Shown: positions 56,993-63,742 of the stretch, in pieces
How the letters are laid out: the number at the start of each line of letters is the position of its first letter
Position numbering within the stretch: the first letter of the stretch is position 1
NCBI RefSeq assembly: GCF_000012485.1
Contig: NC_007512.1
Coordinates: 1 to 64,000 of the forward strand
DNA length: 64,000 nt
From: Pelodictyon luteolum DSM 273
GTDB taxonomy: Bacteria; Bacteroidota; Chlorobiia; Chlorobiales; Chlorobiaceae
Direction: 5' to 3'
Position numbers and translations under genes: made by a program
The notes under the pieces: generated by a model
Databases searched by the model: none
Told to the model about the DNA's origin: nothing
What the model saw: only the letters and a program-made list of their open reading frames with translations

Positions 56993-58612
56993 TCAGTGAG
57001 CTTCCGGGGCATGTCCCTGGTCACCCTTTTTCTCCCTGATGAAGAGCAGGAGGGGTAGACTGCAGAGGAACAAAACGGCTATCAGCATGAAGGCATCCAT
57101 GTAGGCAAGGTGGTAGCTCTGGGCCATCACGGTGCCCTCAAGCGCACGGTTGGCAAGGTTCTCGGCATCGGCAGGGGAGAGAGCTGCCCGTGCTCCGGCT
57201 GCCTGTTTAATGGCCTCCAGGCGTTCAAGCGCAGCGGAATCATACGCTGACATGTGGCCTGCGAGTTCCACCCGGTGTGCGGCGACCCGCTGTGCCACAT
57301 AGGTGTTGGTAATGGCGATGCCGAATGACCCTCCGAGCTGGCGGACCATGTTGTTCAGTCCGGTCGCCTGTCCGATGTCGCGCCCGTGCAGGCCGGTGAC
57401 GGCGAGCATGGTGACTGGAATGAAGATGAATCCGAGCGCCAGGCCGCGCAGCAACAGCACAGCGAAAAAGTTCTCCGCTCCCGATTGCAGGGTCTGTTGT
57501 CCAAGTTCCCAGGAGAACACCATGAAGGCCGCCATGCCGAAAGCCATCATCAGTTTCGCAGATGCGCCTTTCTGCAGGGCAATGCCGAGCGGGAGCGATA
57601 TGGCGCCTGTCAGCATGGCGCTTGGGAACAGCACGAGCCCTGTCAGCACCGCGGTGAACCCGAGCAGGCGCTGCACGAACACCGGAAAGACGAACAGCGA
57701 GCCGTAGAGGCCGTAGCCTACAATGAAGGTGAGTACGGCGGCGATTGCGAGGTTCTTGCTGCGTGATAGCACACTGAGGTCGACTGCCGGGTGCTCAGTA
57801 TGCAGCTCCCACCAGACGAATGCCACGAGCGAGGTGAGGGCGATGAGGGTGAACCAGGTGATGTATGGGGTATCGAACCAGTCCTTCGACTGGCCGCGTT
57901 CAAGAATGAACTGCAGCGAACCGATGCCGGCGGCGAGCAGCCCGATGCCGGTCCAGTCGATCTTCTGTACCTTGTGGCGGACCTTCGGTTCCCGGATGAA
58001 TGTGAATGCCGACCATGCGGCAAGAAGGCCTACCGGGATGTTGACGAAAAAGCACCATTCCCAGCTGAAGTAGTCCACGAGGTAGCCTCCGAGCAGCGGG
58101 CCGATGGTGGGGCCGAGTACGAGGCCCATGGAGAAGATGCCGGTCGCCGCGCCCCGTTCCTCTGGTCGGAAGGTTTCATAGAGGATCGCCTGGGAGGTCG
58201 GCAGGAGGGCACCGCCGCCGATGCCCTGCAGGAAGCGGAAAAAGACCAGCGTCCAGATGTTGTCGGCGAGGCCGCAGAGCAGCGAAGCCAGAGTGAAGAG
58301 CAGGATGGATCCGATGAAATAGGCTCTCCGGCCGAGCAGATTGCCAAGGAACCCCGAGAGCGGGATGACGATCACGTTGGCGATGGCGTAGCTCGTCACC
58401 ACCCATGAGACATCCTCGATGCTTGCGCCGAGGTTGCCGCTGATATGGTTGATTGCCACATTGACGATGGTGGTGTCGATCAATTCCAGCATGGCCGCCA
58501 CAATCACCGTCAAGGTGATGATGGTACGGCGTACGCCGGTTTCATAGGCATGCGCCTCTGAGCCGTTCGCGACGGAGGGCATGCTGGACGGGTGTGCTGC
58601 TGCGCTTTTCAT
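56993..58612 (-). CDS. DHA2-family MFS drug exporter, EmrB-like
   Basis: A 539-residue permease with 14 predicted helices. Motifs: MLELIDTTIVNVAINHISGNLGASIEDVSWVVTSY in part (motif D1), GRRAYFIGS (motif A), and VLGPTIGPLLGGYL (motif C, antiporter). It is the inner membrane pump of an EmrAB-TolC-type tripartite system with the genes just upstream on the same strand; the gap to the emrA-like gene is 12 bases. Confidence 0.92.
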   Translation of the reverse strand: MKSAAAHPSSMPSVANGSEAHAYETGVRRTIITLTVIVAAMLELIDTTIVNVAINHISGNLGASIEDVSWVVTSYAIANVIVIPLSGFLGNLLGRRAYFIGSILLFTLASLLCGLADNIWTLVFFRFLQGIGGGALLPTSQAILYETFRPEERGAATGIFSMGLVLGPTIGPLLGGYLVDYFSWEWCFFVNIPVGLLAAWSAFTFIREPKVRHKVQKIDWTGIGLLAAGIGSLQFILERGQSKDWFDTPYITWFTLIALTSLVAFVWWELHTEHPAVDLSVLSRSKNLAIAAVLTFIVGYGLYGSLFVFPVFVQRLLGFTAVLTGLVLFPSAMLTGAISLPLGIALQKGASAKLMMAFGMAAFMVFSWELGQQTLQSGAENFFAVLLLRGLALGFIFIPVTMLAVTGLHGRDIGQATGLNNMVRQLGGSFGIAITNTYVAQRVAAHRVELAGHMSAYDSAALERLEAIKQAAGARAALSPADAENLANRALEGTVMAQSYHLAYMDAFMLIAVLFLCSLPLLLFIREKKGDQGHAPEAH

Positions 58613-58624
58613 CTGCCGGGTCCT

Positions 58625-59623
58625 TTAGTCTACCCGTACGTCGACCACCACATTCATCCCTGTCGAAAGGTGGCGCTCGGGTTTCCGGTCGAAGACGATC
58701 TTCACCGGTACCCGCTGAGCCACCTTCACAAAGTTGCCGCTGGCGTTATCGGGCGGAAGAAGGGAAAACTTCGCGCCTGTTCCTGCTGAAATGGATTCAA
58801 TCGTTCCCTCATACTCTTCGTCCGGGAATGCGTCTACCCTGATCAACACGTTCTGTCCAGGGCGGATCTTTTCCATCTGGGTTTCCTTGAAGTTTGCCAC
58901 AACCCACAGCCGGCCGCTTCCGACCAGCGCGATGAGCTGCTGGCCCGGCTGCACGAACTGCCCCGCATGGACATTCTTTCTGGAGATATGCCCGTTGGCG
59001 GGCGCCTTGATGGAGGTGTAGGAAAGCTGGAGCTCGGCGTTTCTGAGTTCCGCCTGGCGGAGCTCAACCTGAGCGAGGGTCGACCGGTACCGGCTTTCTG
59101 CTTCTTCATGCCCTGCCGATGCTCCCAGCGCAGCTGCGTTCACGCCGTCAAGCTCAGCCTTTGAAATCACGTCCTGCCGGTGAAGATTCCGGCTCCTCAT
59201 GAGGTCGGCCTGAAGTTTCATTTCGTTGGCAGAAGCAGCCGAAATCGACGCTCTTGCCCCTGCTGCCGCCGCCTCCGCATTTTTCAGGACGGCCCTGGCT
59301 TCGTCGCGGCGGACCACGAAGTCGAGAGAGTCGAGCGCGATGAGCCTCTCACCCTTTTTGACCAGCCGGTTGTCCTCGGCTGTGACCTCAAGCACCTTGC
59401 CCGGCACCCTTGATATCACCGGATAGATGTCACCCTCTATCTGTGCATTGTCGGTCTCTTCGTACAGTAATGAATGGTGGATCATCTGTCCTGCCCAGAT
59501 AAGGCCTATGGATGCAAGTACCCCGAGGACTGCCATTTTGACGAGACTGACGGGGCCCTTTTTTCCTGATCCTGCTTTCGGCGCTTCCGGTGCAGCCTGC
59601 TGCTGCCGTTCTGGTGTTTCCAT
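58625..59623 (-). CDS. Membrane fusion protein, EmrA/HlyD-like
   Basis: A 332-residue periplasmic adaptor with one N-terminal membrane anchor (about 27-48), the lipoyl half-motifs (YEETDNAQIEGDIYPVISRVPGKV and SIKAPANGHISRKNVHAGQFVQPGQ), a coiled-coil hairpin between them (about 100-195) and a C-terminal beta-barrel. It links the EmrB-like pump to the TolC-like channel. It follows the usp gene by seven bases. Confidence 0.92.
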   Translation of the reverse strand: METPERQQQAAPEAPKAGSGKKGPVSLVKMAVLGVLASIGLIWAGQMIHHSLLYEETDNAQIEGDIYPVISRVPGKVLEVTAEDNRLVKKGERLIALDSLDFVVRRDEARAVLKNAEAAAAGARASISAASANEMKLQADLMRSRNLHRQDVISKAELDGVNAAALGASAGHEEAESRYRSTLAQVELRQAELRNAELQLSYTSIKAPANGHISRKNVHAGQFVQPGQQLIALVGSGRLWVVANFKETQMEKIRPGQNVLIRVDAFPDEEYEGTIESISAGTGAKFSLLPPDNASGNFVKVAQRVPVKIVFDRKPERHLSTGMNVVVDVRVD

Positions 59624-59630
59624 GTTGGGT

Positions 59631-60104
59631 TCAGGCGTTGGCTGTTTGTGATAGAAACTCCCGGAACTCGCTGCCTGCCATGGGTTCAGCCGCGATTTCC
59701 GGCATCCTTAGTATCGATACGGGGCAGTGCGCCTGGCGGAGGACTGTTTCAGCAGTGCTTCCGACAAGGAGCCTGGGCATGCGGTTCCTCCCGTGCGAAC
59801 CCATCAGGATGAGCCCCGCTCCGTGCTTCCGTGCAAAGTCGACGATGACGTCGGCAGGGGTGCCGTATTCAACGGCGAATCGCACTTCCCAGCCCGAGCC
59901 CGCAAGGAGCTCGGAATATGCGGAGAACTGCATAAGGTGCTTTCTCAGAAGCGTCTCGCGGTCAGTTCCGTTGTCTTCGGCCACGTGCAGGATGAAGAGC
60001 TTTCCTTGTTCGGGATGCTGTCCTGCAAGGTACTGCAGGGTATTGTCTGAATCAGCGGAAAAATCCACTGGGCAGAGAACGGTGCTGTTACAGTGTCGAT
60101 TCAT
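59631..60104 (-). CDS. Universal stress protein (UspA family)
   Basis: A 157-residue cytoplasmic protein with the UspA fold: LCPVDFSADSDNTLQYL at the N-terminus and the ATP-binding signature GSHGRNRMPRLLVGSTAETVL (G-x2-G-x9-G-S/T type) near residue 106, so it probably binds ATP. Its ATG overlaps the stop codon of the tolC-like gene (ATGA). A stress protein inside an efflux operon suggests that the operon answers to an envelope or toxic stress. Confidence 0.9.
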   Translation of the reverse strand: MNRHCNSTVLCPVDFSADSDNTLQYLAGQHPEQGKLFILHVAEDNGTDRETLLRKHLMQFSAYSELLAGSGWEVRFAVEYGTPADVIVDFARKHGAGLILMGSHGRNRMPRLLVGSTAETVLRQAHCPVSILRMPEIAAEPMAGSEFREFLSQTANA

Positions 60105-61432
60105 TTGGCTTGGATTGATGGTTCCTGCATCAAAGGCATTCCTGAAGCCTTTCTGAATGCATACGTGTTCATGACAAAAGCGTAGCGCGCCTGAAGGTTG
60201 CCGAGTTCGGCCCCGGCGAGCGAGGCTTCCGTGTCGAGCAGATCGAGCGTTGTCGCCAGTCCGTTCATGTGGCGGATTCTGGCGTTTTCAGCCGCAAGCC
60301 GGGCCTGCTCGACCTGCAGCGCCGTGGTGGTGATCTTTTCGCGGCTGGTTTTCAGTGCCCTCGAAGTCTGGCGTACCTCGGCACGGACCCGCTGCTCTGC
60401 TTCAATCCGGTCCTGTTCGGCGGCCCGCTGCATGGCCAGCGCTTCACGCCGTCCCGCCGCAGTTCTGAAGCCTGTGAAGAGCGGCAGCTCGAGCTGCAGG
60501 CCCGCGGTGGTGCTTGTCCGCATGGTACCGAGATCCGGATCGGAATCGGGGAGCCAGCCGTTGCTGCTGCCCCAGGAGACGCTGCCGGTTATTTTCGGAA
60601 GGCCCTGTCTGCCTGCCAGCGATTTTTTCTCTCTGGCGGCACGGGCATGTTCCGTTGCCAGCTTTACTTCCAGTCTGTTCTGGAGCGCCTCGCTTTCGGG
60701 TGCCGGGGCCAGGCTCGGTTCCTCTGCCATGCTGAACGATCCCTTGAGTTCAAGTGGCTCGCCATCGGCAATGGCTGCCAAGCGGCGGAGAGAGATCTCC
60801 TGGTTGGCCAGTTCTGTTTCAAGGTCGAGTTTCCGGTTTTTTGCCGAGGCCAGGCGTACCTCGGTGCTGAGGAGGTCGAAGCGGGTTGCAACGCCTTCGC
60901 GGTAGCGCTTCATGGTGACGTCGAGGTTCTTTTCAAGTGCCGTGATCTCTTTCTCCTGTACCCCGATGGCCTCCCGAAGGAAGAGCATGTCGTAAAAAAT
61001 CTGGATGGTCGCCCAGGAGAGATCCCGCTGGGTCAGGGCCAGCCGGTAGCCGGCTGCATTGCGGCCCGAAGTTGCGATCGTAACGCTCTTGGCGGTCCTG
61101 CCGAAATCAAAGAGCATCATCGAGGCGGAGATGCGGGCATCGTAGCTGTCGTTCGGCATGAACTGCATGCCGTCGAATTGCGAGACTCTGTCGTGGTAGC
61201 CGTAGGTCGCCGTTGCGGCGATCTCGGGAAACCATCCGCTCCGTTTGGCCTCTACCCCCGCGTCTGCTGCATTCACCCCTTCCCGGGCGCTCCGCAATGC
61301 GGGGCTGGTTTCATCCATCCGGGAGAGCGCAGCGTCCAGTGTCAGCTCCATGGCCCGTGCCCCGGTGCTGAGCGGCAATCCCGCGGTGGTGGCGGCAAGG
61401 AGGATGAGGGCTGAAGCGAAGGTCCTGTTCAT
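60101..61432 (-). CDS. TolC-like outer membrane efflux protein
   Basis: A 443-residue outer membrane channel. The ATG at 61432 starts a signal peptide (MNRTFASALILLAATTAGLPLSTGARA) and then the OEP repeat ELTLDAALSRMDETSPALRSAREGVNAADAGVEAKRSGWFPEI in part; the second repeat carries TAGLQLELPLFTGFRTAAGRREA. First gene of the operon tolC-usp-emrA-emrB on the minus strand. A sigma-54-type promoter lies 40-54 bases upstream. Longer in-frame starts would overlap this promoter and are rejected. Confidence 0.92.
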   Translation of the reverse strand: MNRTFASALILLAATTAGLPLSTGARAMELTLDAALSRMDETSPALRSAREGVNAADAGVEAKRSGWFPEIAATATYGYHDRVSQFDGMQFMPNDSYDARISASMMLFDFGRTAKSVTIATSGRNAAGYRLALTQRDLSWATIQIFYDMLFLREAIGVQEKEITALEKNLDVTMKRYREGVATRFDLLSTEVRLASAKNRKLDLETELANQEISLRRLAAIADGEPLELKGSFSMAEEPSLAPAPESEALQNRLEVKLATEHARAAREKKSLAGRQGLPKITGSVSWGSSNGWLPDSDPDLGTMRTSTTAGLQLELPLFTGFRTAAGRREALAMQRAAEQDRIEAEQRVRAEVRQTSRALKTSREKITTTALQVEQARLAAENARIRHMNGLATTLDLLDTEASLAGAELGNLQARYAFVMNTYAFRKASGMPLMQEPSIQAK

Positions 61433-61471
61433 GGTCGGTGGTGTTTTTTGTTGTAATGCAGTATATCCTGT

Positions 61472-61486
61472 GCAATTTCTATGCCA
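61472..61486 (-). promoter_or_regulatory. Sigma-54 promoter of the tolC-usp-emrAB operon
   Basis: Minus strand reads TTGGCATAGAAATTGCA (61487 to 61471): TGGC and TTGC are separated by seven bases, exactly the -24/-12 arrangement of sigma-54 promoters (consensus TGGCAC-N5-TTGCA). The predicted transcript starts near 61460, 28 bases before the tolC-like ATG. The divergent neighbour encodes a sigma-54 activator. Confidence 0.75.
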
Positions 61487-61504
61487 AGGCGGCATTTGGT
61501 AGAA

Positions 61505-61520
61505 ATGTGTCATAAGACAT
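61505..61520. promoter_or_regulatory. Possible activator-binding inverted repeat near the tolC promoter
   Basis: TGTC (61508-61511) and GACA (61516-61519) within ATGTGTCATAAGACAT (61505-61520), 19 bases upstream of the -24 element. It is closer than usual for an enhancer site, so it may be an additional or repressor site. Confidence 0.35.
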
Positions 61521-61573
61521 TGCTTTTAAATGGCTTGTGTTTATGGTTCGCCTGCTCTGGATTTGGATAATTC

Positions 61574-61594
61574 CTGAAAATTCAGAATATTCTG
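61574..61594. promoter_or_regulatory. Overlapping palindromes, candidate enhancer site
   Basis: CTGAA-AA-TTCAG (61574-61585) overlaps the perfect 12-base palindrome CAGAATATTCTG (61583-61594). They lie about 90-110 bases upstream of the -24 element of the tolC promoter, the usual distance for a sigma-54 enhancer, and beside the start of the activator gene, so the protein could also control its own transcription. Confidence 0.5.
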
Positions 61595-61642
61595 GAAAGA
61601 GTGTTCCGGACTTTTCAGAATTATGGGATTTTCCTCCACCGT

Positions 61643-63742
61643 ATGAGTGCTGAAATCCATCAGGAATCCCTCCGGCTGATGCAGTACATCAGCGACGCCG
61701 TGGGTACGCTCCGCGATCCGCGTGAGCTCTTCCATACTCTTACAGACAAACTCCGCCTGATCTTCGAGTTCGACTCGGCAGTCATCATCACCCTCGACAA
61801 GGACCGCCGCCATGTCAGCGTCTTTTTTGAGATGCTTCGTTTTGAGCTTCCCGAAGGGGTGACACGGGAAAAACGACTGATTGCGGGTTCGTGGTTCGAG
61901 CCGTTTCTGGCCGATCCGGCTGTCACCGTATTCAGTATCGAGCGTGAGCTTCAGGCGCATGGTGACGAAGCCTTTCCGGTCCTGAAGATCCTCCATGGCC
62001 TCGGTATGCGCCAGATTGTGCTCTCGCCGCTGCGCAGCGGAGGCAGAGTGATCGGATTCCTGAACTTCGTCTCCCGCGAGGAGAACGTCTGGAGCGCTGC
62101 CGATCGGGAACTGCTTGCCGGAGTATCCTCTCCCATCGCCATGGCGGTCAGTAATGCCATGGCCTACGAAGAGCTGCGCGAGAGGGAGGCTCAGACGGCG
62201 ATGCAGCTGGCGGTAAACAACGCCCTCATGACCATCCGCGACCGGAGGAAAATGCTGCTTGCCGTCTGTGAGCAGATCAACAAGCTCGTTCCTGCGGCCT
62301 TTCTCGGCATCAGGGTCTTCGGCGATGACGGCCGGGCGCGCCTGTTCGACAACTTCATGAAGGATGAGCATCACCGGTTCATGCCCGTGTCGGTCGAAGA
62401 GCGCCTTGAGCTCGTTGAGCCGGAGGTGGCGGTGCGGGAAAGCCTTGAGCTCATAGGCCGCCCCGGCGTTTACTCAGGGGGAGTCTTCAGCCGCCTTGCC
62501 GAAGAGTACAGCCTTGTTGCCGAAGTGCGCGACAAATACCGGATCAGTACCCTCATCAGCGCACCGCTCTGGGATCTGCCAGGCAGCCGTGCGGGGGTCA
62601 TCATCTCCGGCAGCGAAAGCCCATTCGGCGAGGAGGATCTGGCGACCGTGGGGCTCATTTTACCCCAGCTCTCACTAGCCCTGCAGAACTGGCTCGCGTT
62701 CGAGGAGATCGACAAGCTTCGCCGCAAACTCGAAGGCGAGCGCACTTACCTCGTCGAAGAGATCAGCGCCGCACACAACTTTGAGGAGATCATCGGCCAG
62801 AGCCCGGCGCTTGCAGCCGTGCAGCGCCGGGTAAGCCAGGTTGCGCCGACCGACGCAACCGTGCTGATCGAAGGAGAGACCGGTACAGGCAAGGAGCTCT
62901 TTGCCCGCGCCATTCATACTCTCTCTCCCCGCCGCAACAGCGTGCTGGTGAAGGTCAACTGCGCGGCCCTTCCCGCCACCCTCATCGAGTCCGAGCTCTT
63001 CGGTCATGAAAAAGGCAGCTTCACCGGAGCCGGCGCTCGCCGTATCGGCAAGTTCGAACTTGCTGACGGTGGCACCATTTTCCTTGATGAGATCGGAGAG
63101 CTCTCCCTTGAACTGCAGGCAAAGATGCTGCGGGTTCTTCAGGAGCGCGAACTCGAGCGGATCGGCGGAACAAGGGTCATTCCTGTCGACGTCCGTGTCA
63201 TAGCCGCGACCAACCGCGACCTGCAGCGGGAGGTCGACGAGGGCCGGTTCCGCGAAGATCTCTTTTTCCGCCTGAATGCATTTCCCATTGCGCTCCCGCC
63301 GCTCCGGGAGCGGCACGGCGATATTCCGATGCTTGTCATGCACTTCGCTTCGAAATTCGCACGCGAGTTCGGCCGCCCTGCACGAGCCATCCGGGAGAAC
63401 GACATGCACGACCTCGGTGGCCGGAGATGGAAAGGTAACATCCGCGAACTTGCCCATGTCGTCGAGCAGGCCGTCATCGTCAGCGAAGGCTCCACCCTTG
63501 ATTTCTCCGCCGTGCTCAGCCAGCCGGTCGGCATCTCCCCCTCCGCCTCCGGGGAGATGCCGACCATGGAGGGGTTCGAGGAAGAGGTGCGCAGGATGCA
63601 GCGACAGCTCATCCTCGAAGCCCTCAAGAGTTCCAACGGGCGGGTCAGCGGCAGAGGCGGGGCAGCAGAACGCCTCGATATGCACCCGAAAACCCTCTAC
63701 ACCCGCATTGAAAAACTCGGTATACAGAAACACCACGTCTGA
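61643..63742 (+). CDS. GAF-domain sigma-54-dependent transcriptional activator
   Basis: About 699 residues from the ATG at 61643 (a GTG at 61601 would add 14). Two N-terminal GAF-like sensor domains (about 30-170 and 185-355) precede an AAA+ domain with Walker A GETGTGKE near residue 411, the sigma-54 contact loop GSFTGA near 457 (Ser replaces Ala in GAFTGA) and Walker [14 protein letters not shown] Fis-type HTH ends the protein ([28 protein letters not shown]). The FhlA/NorR-like layout implies control by a small molecule or redox ligand. Divergent from the efflux operon and followed by a second -24/-12 element. Confidence 0.93.

Follow-up and report, generated by a model that had tools for sequence, protein, structure and literature searches.

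The window, by which we mean the whole 64-kb stretch of DNA analysed, comprises the first 64 kb of a genome that consists of a single contig of 2,364,842 bp. Towards its end lies a four-gene efflux operon on the minus strand, divergent from a gene for a σ54 activator. The first operon gene (60101–61432) codes for a TolC-family outer membrane efflux protein of 443 aa. It is followed by genes for a 157-aa universal stress protein (Usp; 59631–60104), a 332-aa EmrA-type periplasmic adaptor (58625–59623), and a 539-aa EmrB-type DHA2 MFS permease (56993–58612). The order tolC-usp-emrA-emrB, proposed in a preliminary description of this DNA, is borne out by the reading frames and by profile matches. 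The permease scored 410 against the TIGR00711 cut-off of 230. The adaptor matched EmrA-family models, yet stayed below the TIGR00998 cut-off (211 of 391). With an EmrB-type permease, an EmrA-like adaptor, and a TolC channel, the products make up a tripartite pump of the EmrAB type, which probably expels unwanted small molecules; drugs or toxins may be among its cargo, with an inducer sensed by the GAF domains of the activator. The stress protein carries an intact ATP-binding motif, G-2X-G-9X-GS, and in almost every orthologous operon its gene, with the motif intact, separates tolC from emrA. Since no usp match was present in five loci, the gene is accessory.

The divergent gene (61643–63742, plus strand) codes for an enhancer-binding protein of 699 aa, counted from ATG 61643. 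This start is more likely than GTG 61601, because the latter falls inside a conserved array of putative binding sites (see below). Pfam detected one GAF domain, a σ54-type AAA+ domain, and a Fis-type helix-turn-helix (HTH) domain, while a second GAF domain was visible in the predicted structure. In a fold comparison, residues 7–363 of the predicted structure matched the tandem GAF domains of PDE5A. GAF2 alone matched none of the solved GAF structures by sequence, and the second domain therefore rests on the predicted fold and on the PDE5A match. The AAA+ domain has a Walker A motif, and its GxFTGA loop reads GSFTGA in every family orthologue. The GAF-GAF-AAA+-Fis architecture with a GSFTGA loop that had been read from the letters is thus upheld by Pfam, the predicted fold, and the orthologues. 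The best NCBIfam alignments of the protein were to FhlA (NF011958) and NorR (NF003451), yet with 420 of 830 and 367 of 476 bits, respectively, it fell below both equivalog cut-offs. GAF1 was 66% identical (Z 26.5) to PDB 3K2N, a GAF domain from a σ54-dependent regulator of Chlorobium tepidum TLS, to which the activator is orthologous and of which only the GAF domain has been solved. The closest named relative of the activator, at 92% identity, is from Pelodictyon (Chlorobium) luteolum, which marks the host as a green sulfur bacterium. The genome also encodes σ54 itself (rpoN), and of its seven strong σ54 activator domains, the one in the window had the top score.

The −24/−12 element ahead of tolC

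The pattern TGGCAN6TTGCA has a single exact match in the window, TGGCATAGAAATTGCA, on the minus strand at 61486–61471. The match has the form of a σ54 promoter core (TGGCAY-N5-TTGCW) with its fixed spacing and its GG and GC doublets. A minus-strand −24/−12 element had been noted here in the preliminary description, which placed it 28 bases from the operon leader; the core proved to be perfect, and the distance from the −12 element had to be corrected to 38 nt, because tolC starts at ATG 61432. Transcription is predicted to start near 61460, about 11 nt downstream of the −12 element. In the whole genome, exact TGGCAN6TTGCW occurred at 19 sites, compared to 5 for the reversed pattern. A match such as TGGCATAGAAATTGCA is thus not improbable in itself, and the proof has to come from conservation.

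For each of 65 orthologous loci, the best −24/−12 site within 300 bp ahead of the activator gene was scored, with dinucleotide shuffles serving as a control. The alignment of orthologous intergenic regions had been put forward earlier as the check on the element, with its non-conservation counting as refutation. A site scoring at least 12.5 of 15 was kept, in the same place, at about 60 of the 65 loci, while only 4.6% of the shuffles reached this score. The GG, CA, and TTG columns were invariant or nearly so across orthologues, and most flanking columns held less than 0.5 bit, so that conservation of the element goes beyond that of its surroundings. Information content was taken at the best-scoring positions, which flatters the motif columns somewhat; the shuffle control is free of this fault, and the genomes compared are related and hence not independent. 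In some orthologues the −12 element is weakened (e.g., to TTGAT or TTGTA). In one genome (G015; L114 9030–9351) the stretch ahead of tolC, which runs to the contig end, has no −24/−12 element; a rearrangement or a mobile element may be the cause.

The motif could have been conserved as a by-product of coding sequence if tolC started upstream, since its frame is open up to 61513 (470 aa). In relatives, distances between the motif and the tolC start cluster at about 27–49 nt without differing by multiples of three, so that conservation of coding sequence is excluded; the flanks of the motif are unconserved, and the first residues of the frame from 61432 look like a signal peptide. We give this explanation a negligible probability. 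A σ70 promoter overlapping the element (TTGGCA-16-TATACT, 61487–61460; 10 of 12 positions in our scan) might instead transcribe the operon, with the activator acting elsewhere. An in-register match of this kind was present in just 2 of 65 orthologues, and its second hexamer shows no conserved columns, whereas the GG, CA, and TTG of the σ54 element are kept. Moreover, the region holds fewer σ70-like sites than shuffled sequences do (1 vs 1.8). Transcription from this σ70-like match is very unlikely. Control of the operon by σ54 is very likely, as the locus combines the site and its spacing with a dedicated activator, and the genome has rpoN.

Elsewhere in the genome, perfect −24/−12 elements were found in three tandem 226-bp repeats (1700132–1700599), just ahead of small RNAs of the Chlorobi-1 family (Rfam RF01696). 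The three tandem RNA genes (C1:1700054–1700599; L117 2555–3101; minus strand) each follow a perfect element. In the family, an element scoring at least 12.5 accompanied 41 of 44 Chlorobi-1 copies, compared to 1 of 87 control stretches. The element usually ends 9–11 nt before the RNA, which puts the first base of the RNA at or next to the expected σ54 start. By this measure, the Chlorobi-1 RNAs look like σ54-dependent small RNAs. The word sigma is not used in the paper describing the Chlorobi-1 motif (PMC2864571).

Paired sites between the divergent genes

Two overlapping palindromes had been noticed at 61574–61594, and both are exact: CTGAAAATTCAG at 61574–61585 and CAGAATATTCTG at 61583–61594. 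Comparison with orthologues indicates that they form the proximal half of a conserved array of two sites, composed of TTCTGA-N5-TCAGAA, a CAGAA half-site, and a second TTCTGA-N5-TCAGAA, with the centres of the full sites exactly 33 bp apart. In the window, the proximal candidate site for the activator (61571–61587) reads TTCTGAATTTTCAGGAA on the minus strand and is centred 93 bp upstream of the −24 box; the distal candidate (61604–61620), 33 bp away centre to centre, reads TTCTGAAAAGTCCGGAA on that strand. The central palindrome CAGAATATTCTG overlaps the proximal site and contains the conserved CAGAA half-site. Repeated upstream sites of this kind, here recognised as sequence arrays, are a feature of enhancer-binding protein targets.

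The 33-bp spacing is kept in nearly all orthologues. Distances from the proximal site to the −24 box fall into clusters of 61–63, 73–74, 81–85, and 92–97 bp, with most orthologues at 81–85 or 92–97 bp. The clusters sit about one helical turn apart, as expected if the face of the helix is kept. A test of helical phasing on unique distances gave p = 0.003, a value that ignores phylogeny and takes in two outlying distances, and that we do not rely on alone. The exact double site occurred 20 times in 86 genomes, compared to none for a reversed control, and by coordinate comparison an activator orthologue lay no more than about 110 bp away in 19 of these 20 occurrences.

The array sits just 22–72 bp ahead of the likely activator start, ATG 61643. 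Its sites could therefore serve mainly to regulate the activator's own gene, with the protein controlling other genes in trans. Such an arrangement is highly improbable: the paired sites keep to certain distances from the −24 box, spaced about one turn of the helix apart, and no other paired site stands clearly above chance in the genome. With one mismatch allowed, the double site was matched at the efflux locus only; with two, at three further places, compared to one for the reversed control.

Taken together, these observations make it highly probable that the EmrAB-TolC-type efflux operon is transcribed through its −24/−12 element by σ54 and switched by the divergent GAF-GAF-AAA+-Fis activator acting at the paired sites. 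The earlier proposal that a σ54 activator drives the neighbouring efflux operon thereby gains support from conservation of the promoter and the array and from the presence of rpoN. The switch would work as follows. Dimers of the activator would bind the two TTCTGA-N5-TCAGAA palindromes, whose centres lie 33 bp apart just ahead of the activator gene, and a signal received at the GAF region would cause the activator to oligomerise. The oligomer would then contact the promoter by looping, always from one face of the helix, and ATP hydrolysis would remodel the closed complex there, allowing RNA polymerase with σ54 to transcribe tolC-usp-emrA-emrB from the element at 61486–61471. Because the array abuts the activator's own start at ATG 61643, the bound protein possibly also limits its own transcription.

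The module in the family and among known systems

Full-length activator orthologues (identity of at least 58%) were found in most of the 86 family genomes. All four genes, tolC, usp, emrA, and emrB, were divergent from the activator in 62 of 82 loci examined (59 in the family and 3 outside it). Where the contig is long enough, a divergent tolC-(usp)-emrA-emrB operon always adjoins the activator orthologue in the family. In five genomes emrB lacked a full activator, and in all of them the contig ends before or within the activator gene. In the three loci outside the family (L096, L097, and L098), an activator that is 44–46% identical again has a divergent TolC-Usp-EmrA-EmrB operon next to it. 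There, two TTCCT-type palindromes lie about 31–33 bp apart and a TGGCAC −24 box is present; no canonical −12 element was found in these three relatives.

A few genomes contain paralogous activators (58–66% identical) beside genes for TolC, Usp, HlyD-like, and ABC-type proteins (L065, L092, and L093), these neighbours having been assigned from translated frames rather than by profile search. Remnants of paralogous loci were also seen (L094, L095, and L104), and some paralogous loci have a similar site array and −24/−12 promoter. Since paralogous activators adjoin other pump-type genes, this type of activator may serve more than one pump.

FhlA- and NorR-type systems have in common with the one described here a GAF input domain, a σ54 AAA+ domain, a Fis HTH, a divergent −24/−12 target, and paired upstream sites. 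They differ in their targets, which belong to formate or NO metabolism; here, the target is an efflux pump, and the sites have the sequence TTCTGA-N5-TCAGAA and a spacing of 33 bp. EmrAB-TolC pumps are usually under MarR- or TetR-type repressors. The operon shares with EmrAB-TolC operons an EmrA-type adaptor, an EmrB-type permease (TIGR00711), and a TolC-family channel; unlike in those operons, tolC is part of the operon, a usp gene lies in between, and control appears to be by a σ54 activator. A 2025 survey predicted, from promoter matrices, σ54 control of ABC antimicrobial and multidrug exporters in Bacteroidia (PMC12316311). It thus places pumps of the same phylum under predicted σ54 control, in that case ABC and FtsX-like systems identified by class-wide enrichment; a TolC or EmrAB-type pump was not found in its text, and Chlorobiia are named there just for nitrogen genes. 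No σ54-controlled EmrAB-type operon was found in our literature search, which took in few subscription papers, and the titles and abstracts seen contained no case of a σ54 activator combined with EmrAB. The search also returned nothing on σ54 or rpoN in Chlorobium, on σ54 and efflux in green sulfur bacteria, or on the function of the PDB 3K2N regulator. Enhancer-binding control of a pump was not found in PMC10433810, and the word efflux is not used in PMC3162934. What appears to be new is therefore the application of enhancer-binding protein control, family-wide, to an EmrAB-type pump. With a DNA switch conserved across nearly the whole family, the prediction is strong but not exotic.

An EmrAB-type pump would thus be under obligately activator-dependent σ54 control across a bacterial family, and a regulator with a solved GAF domain (3K2N) gains a concrete target and a predicted binding site. 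Because the module is nearly universal and apparently vertically kept, it suggests a constitutive need of green sulfur bacteria rather than an acquired resistance. A more tentative idea, which we hold to be possible though doubtful, is that the activator uses its tandem GAF domains to gauge an internal metabolite and, by way of σ54, turns on the export of this metabolite together with an ATP-binding stress protein, so that the family-wide module would serve metabolite homeostasis and not drug defence. With one activator, one target, and a fixed geometry, the locus offers a clean system in which to find out, in an anaerobic phototroph, what induces the pump and what it exports.
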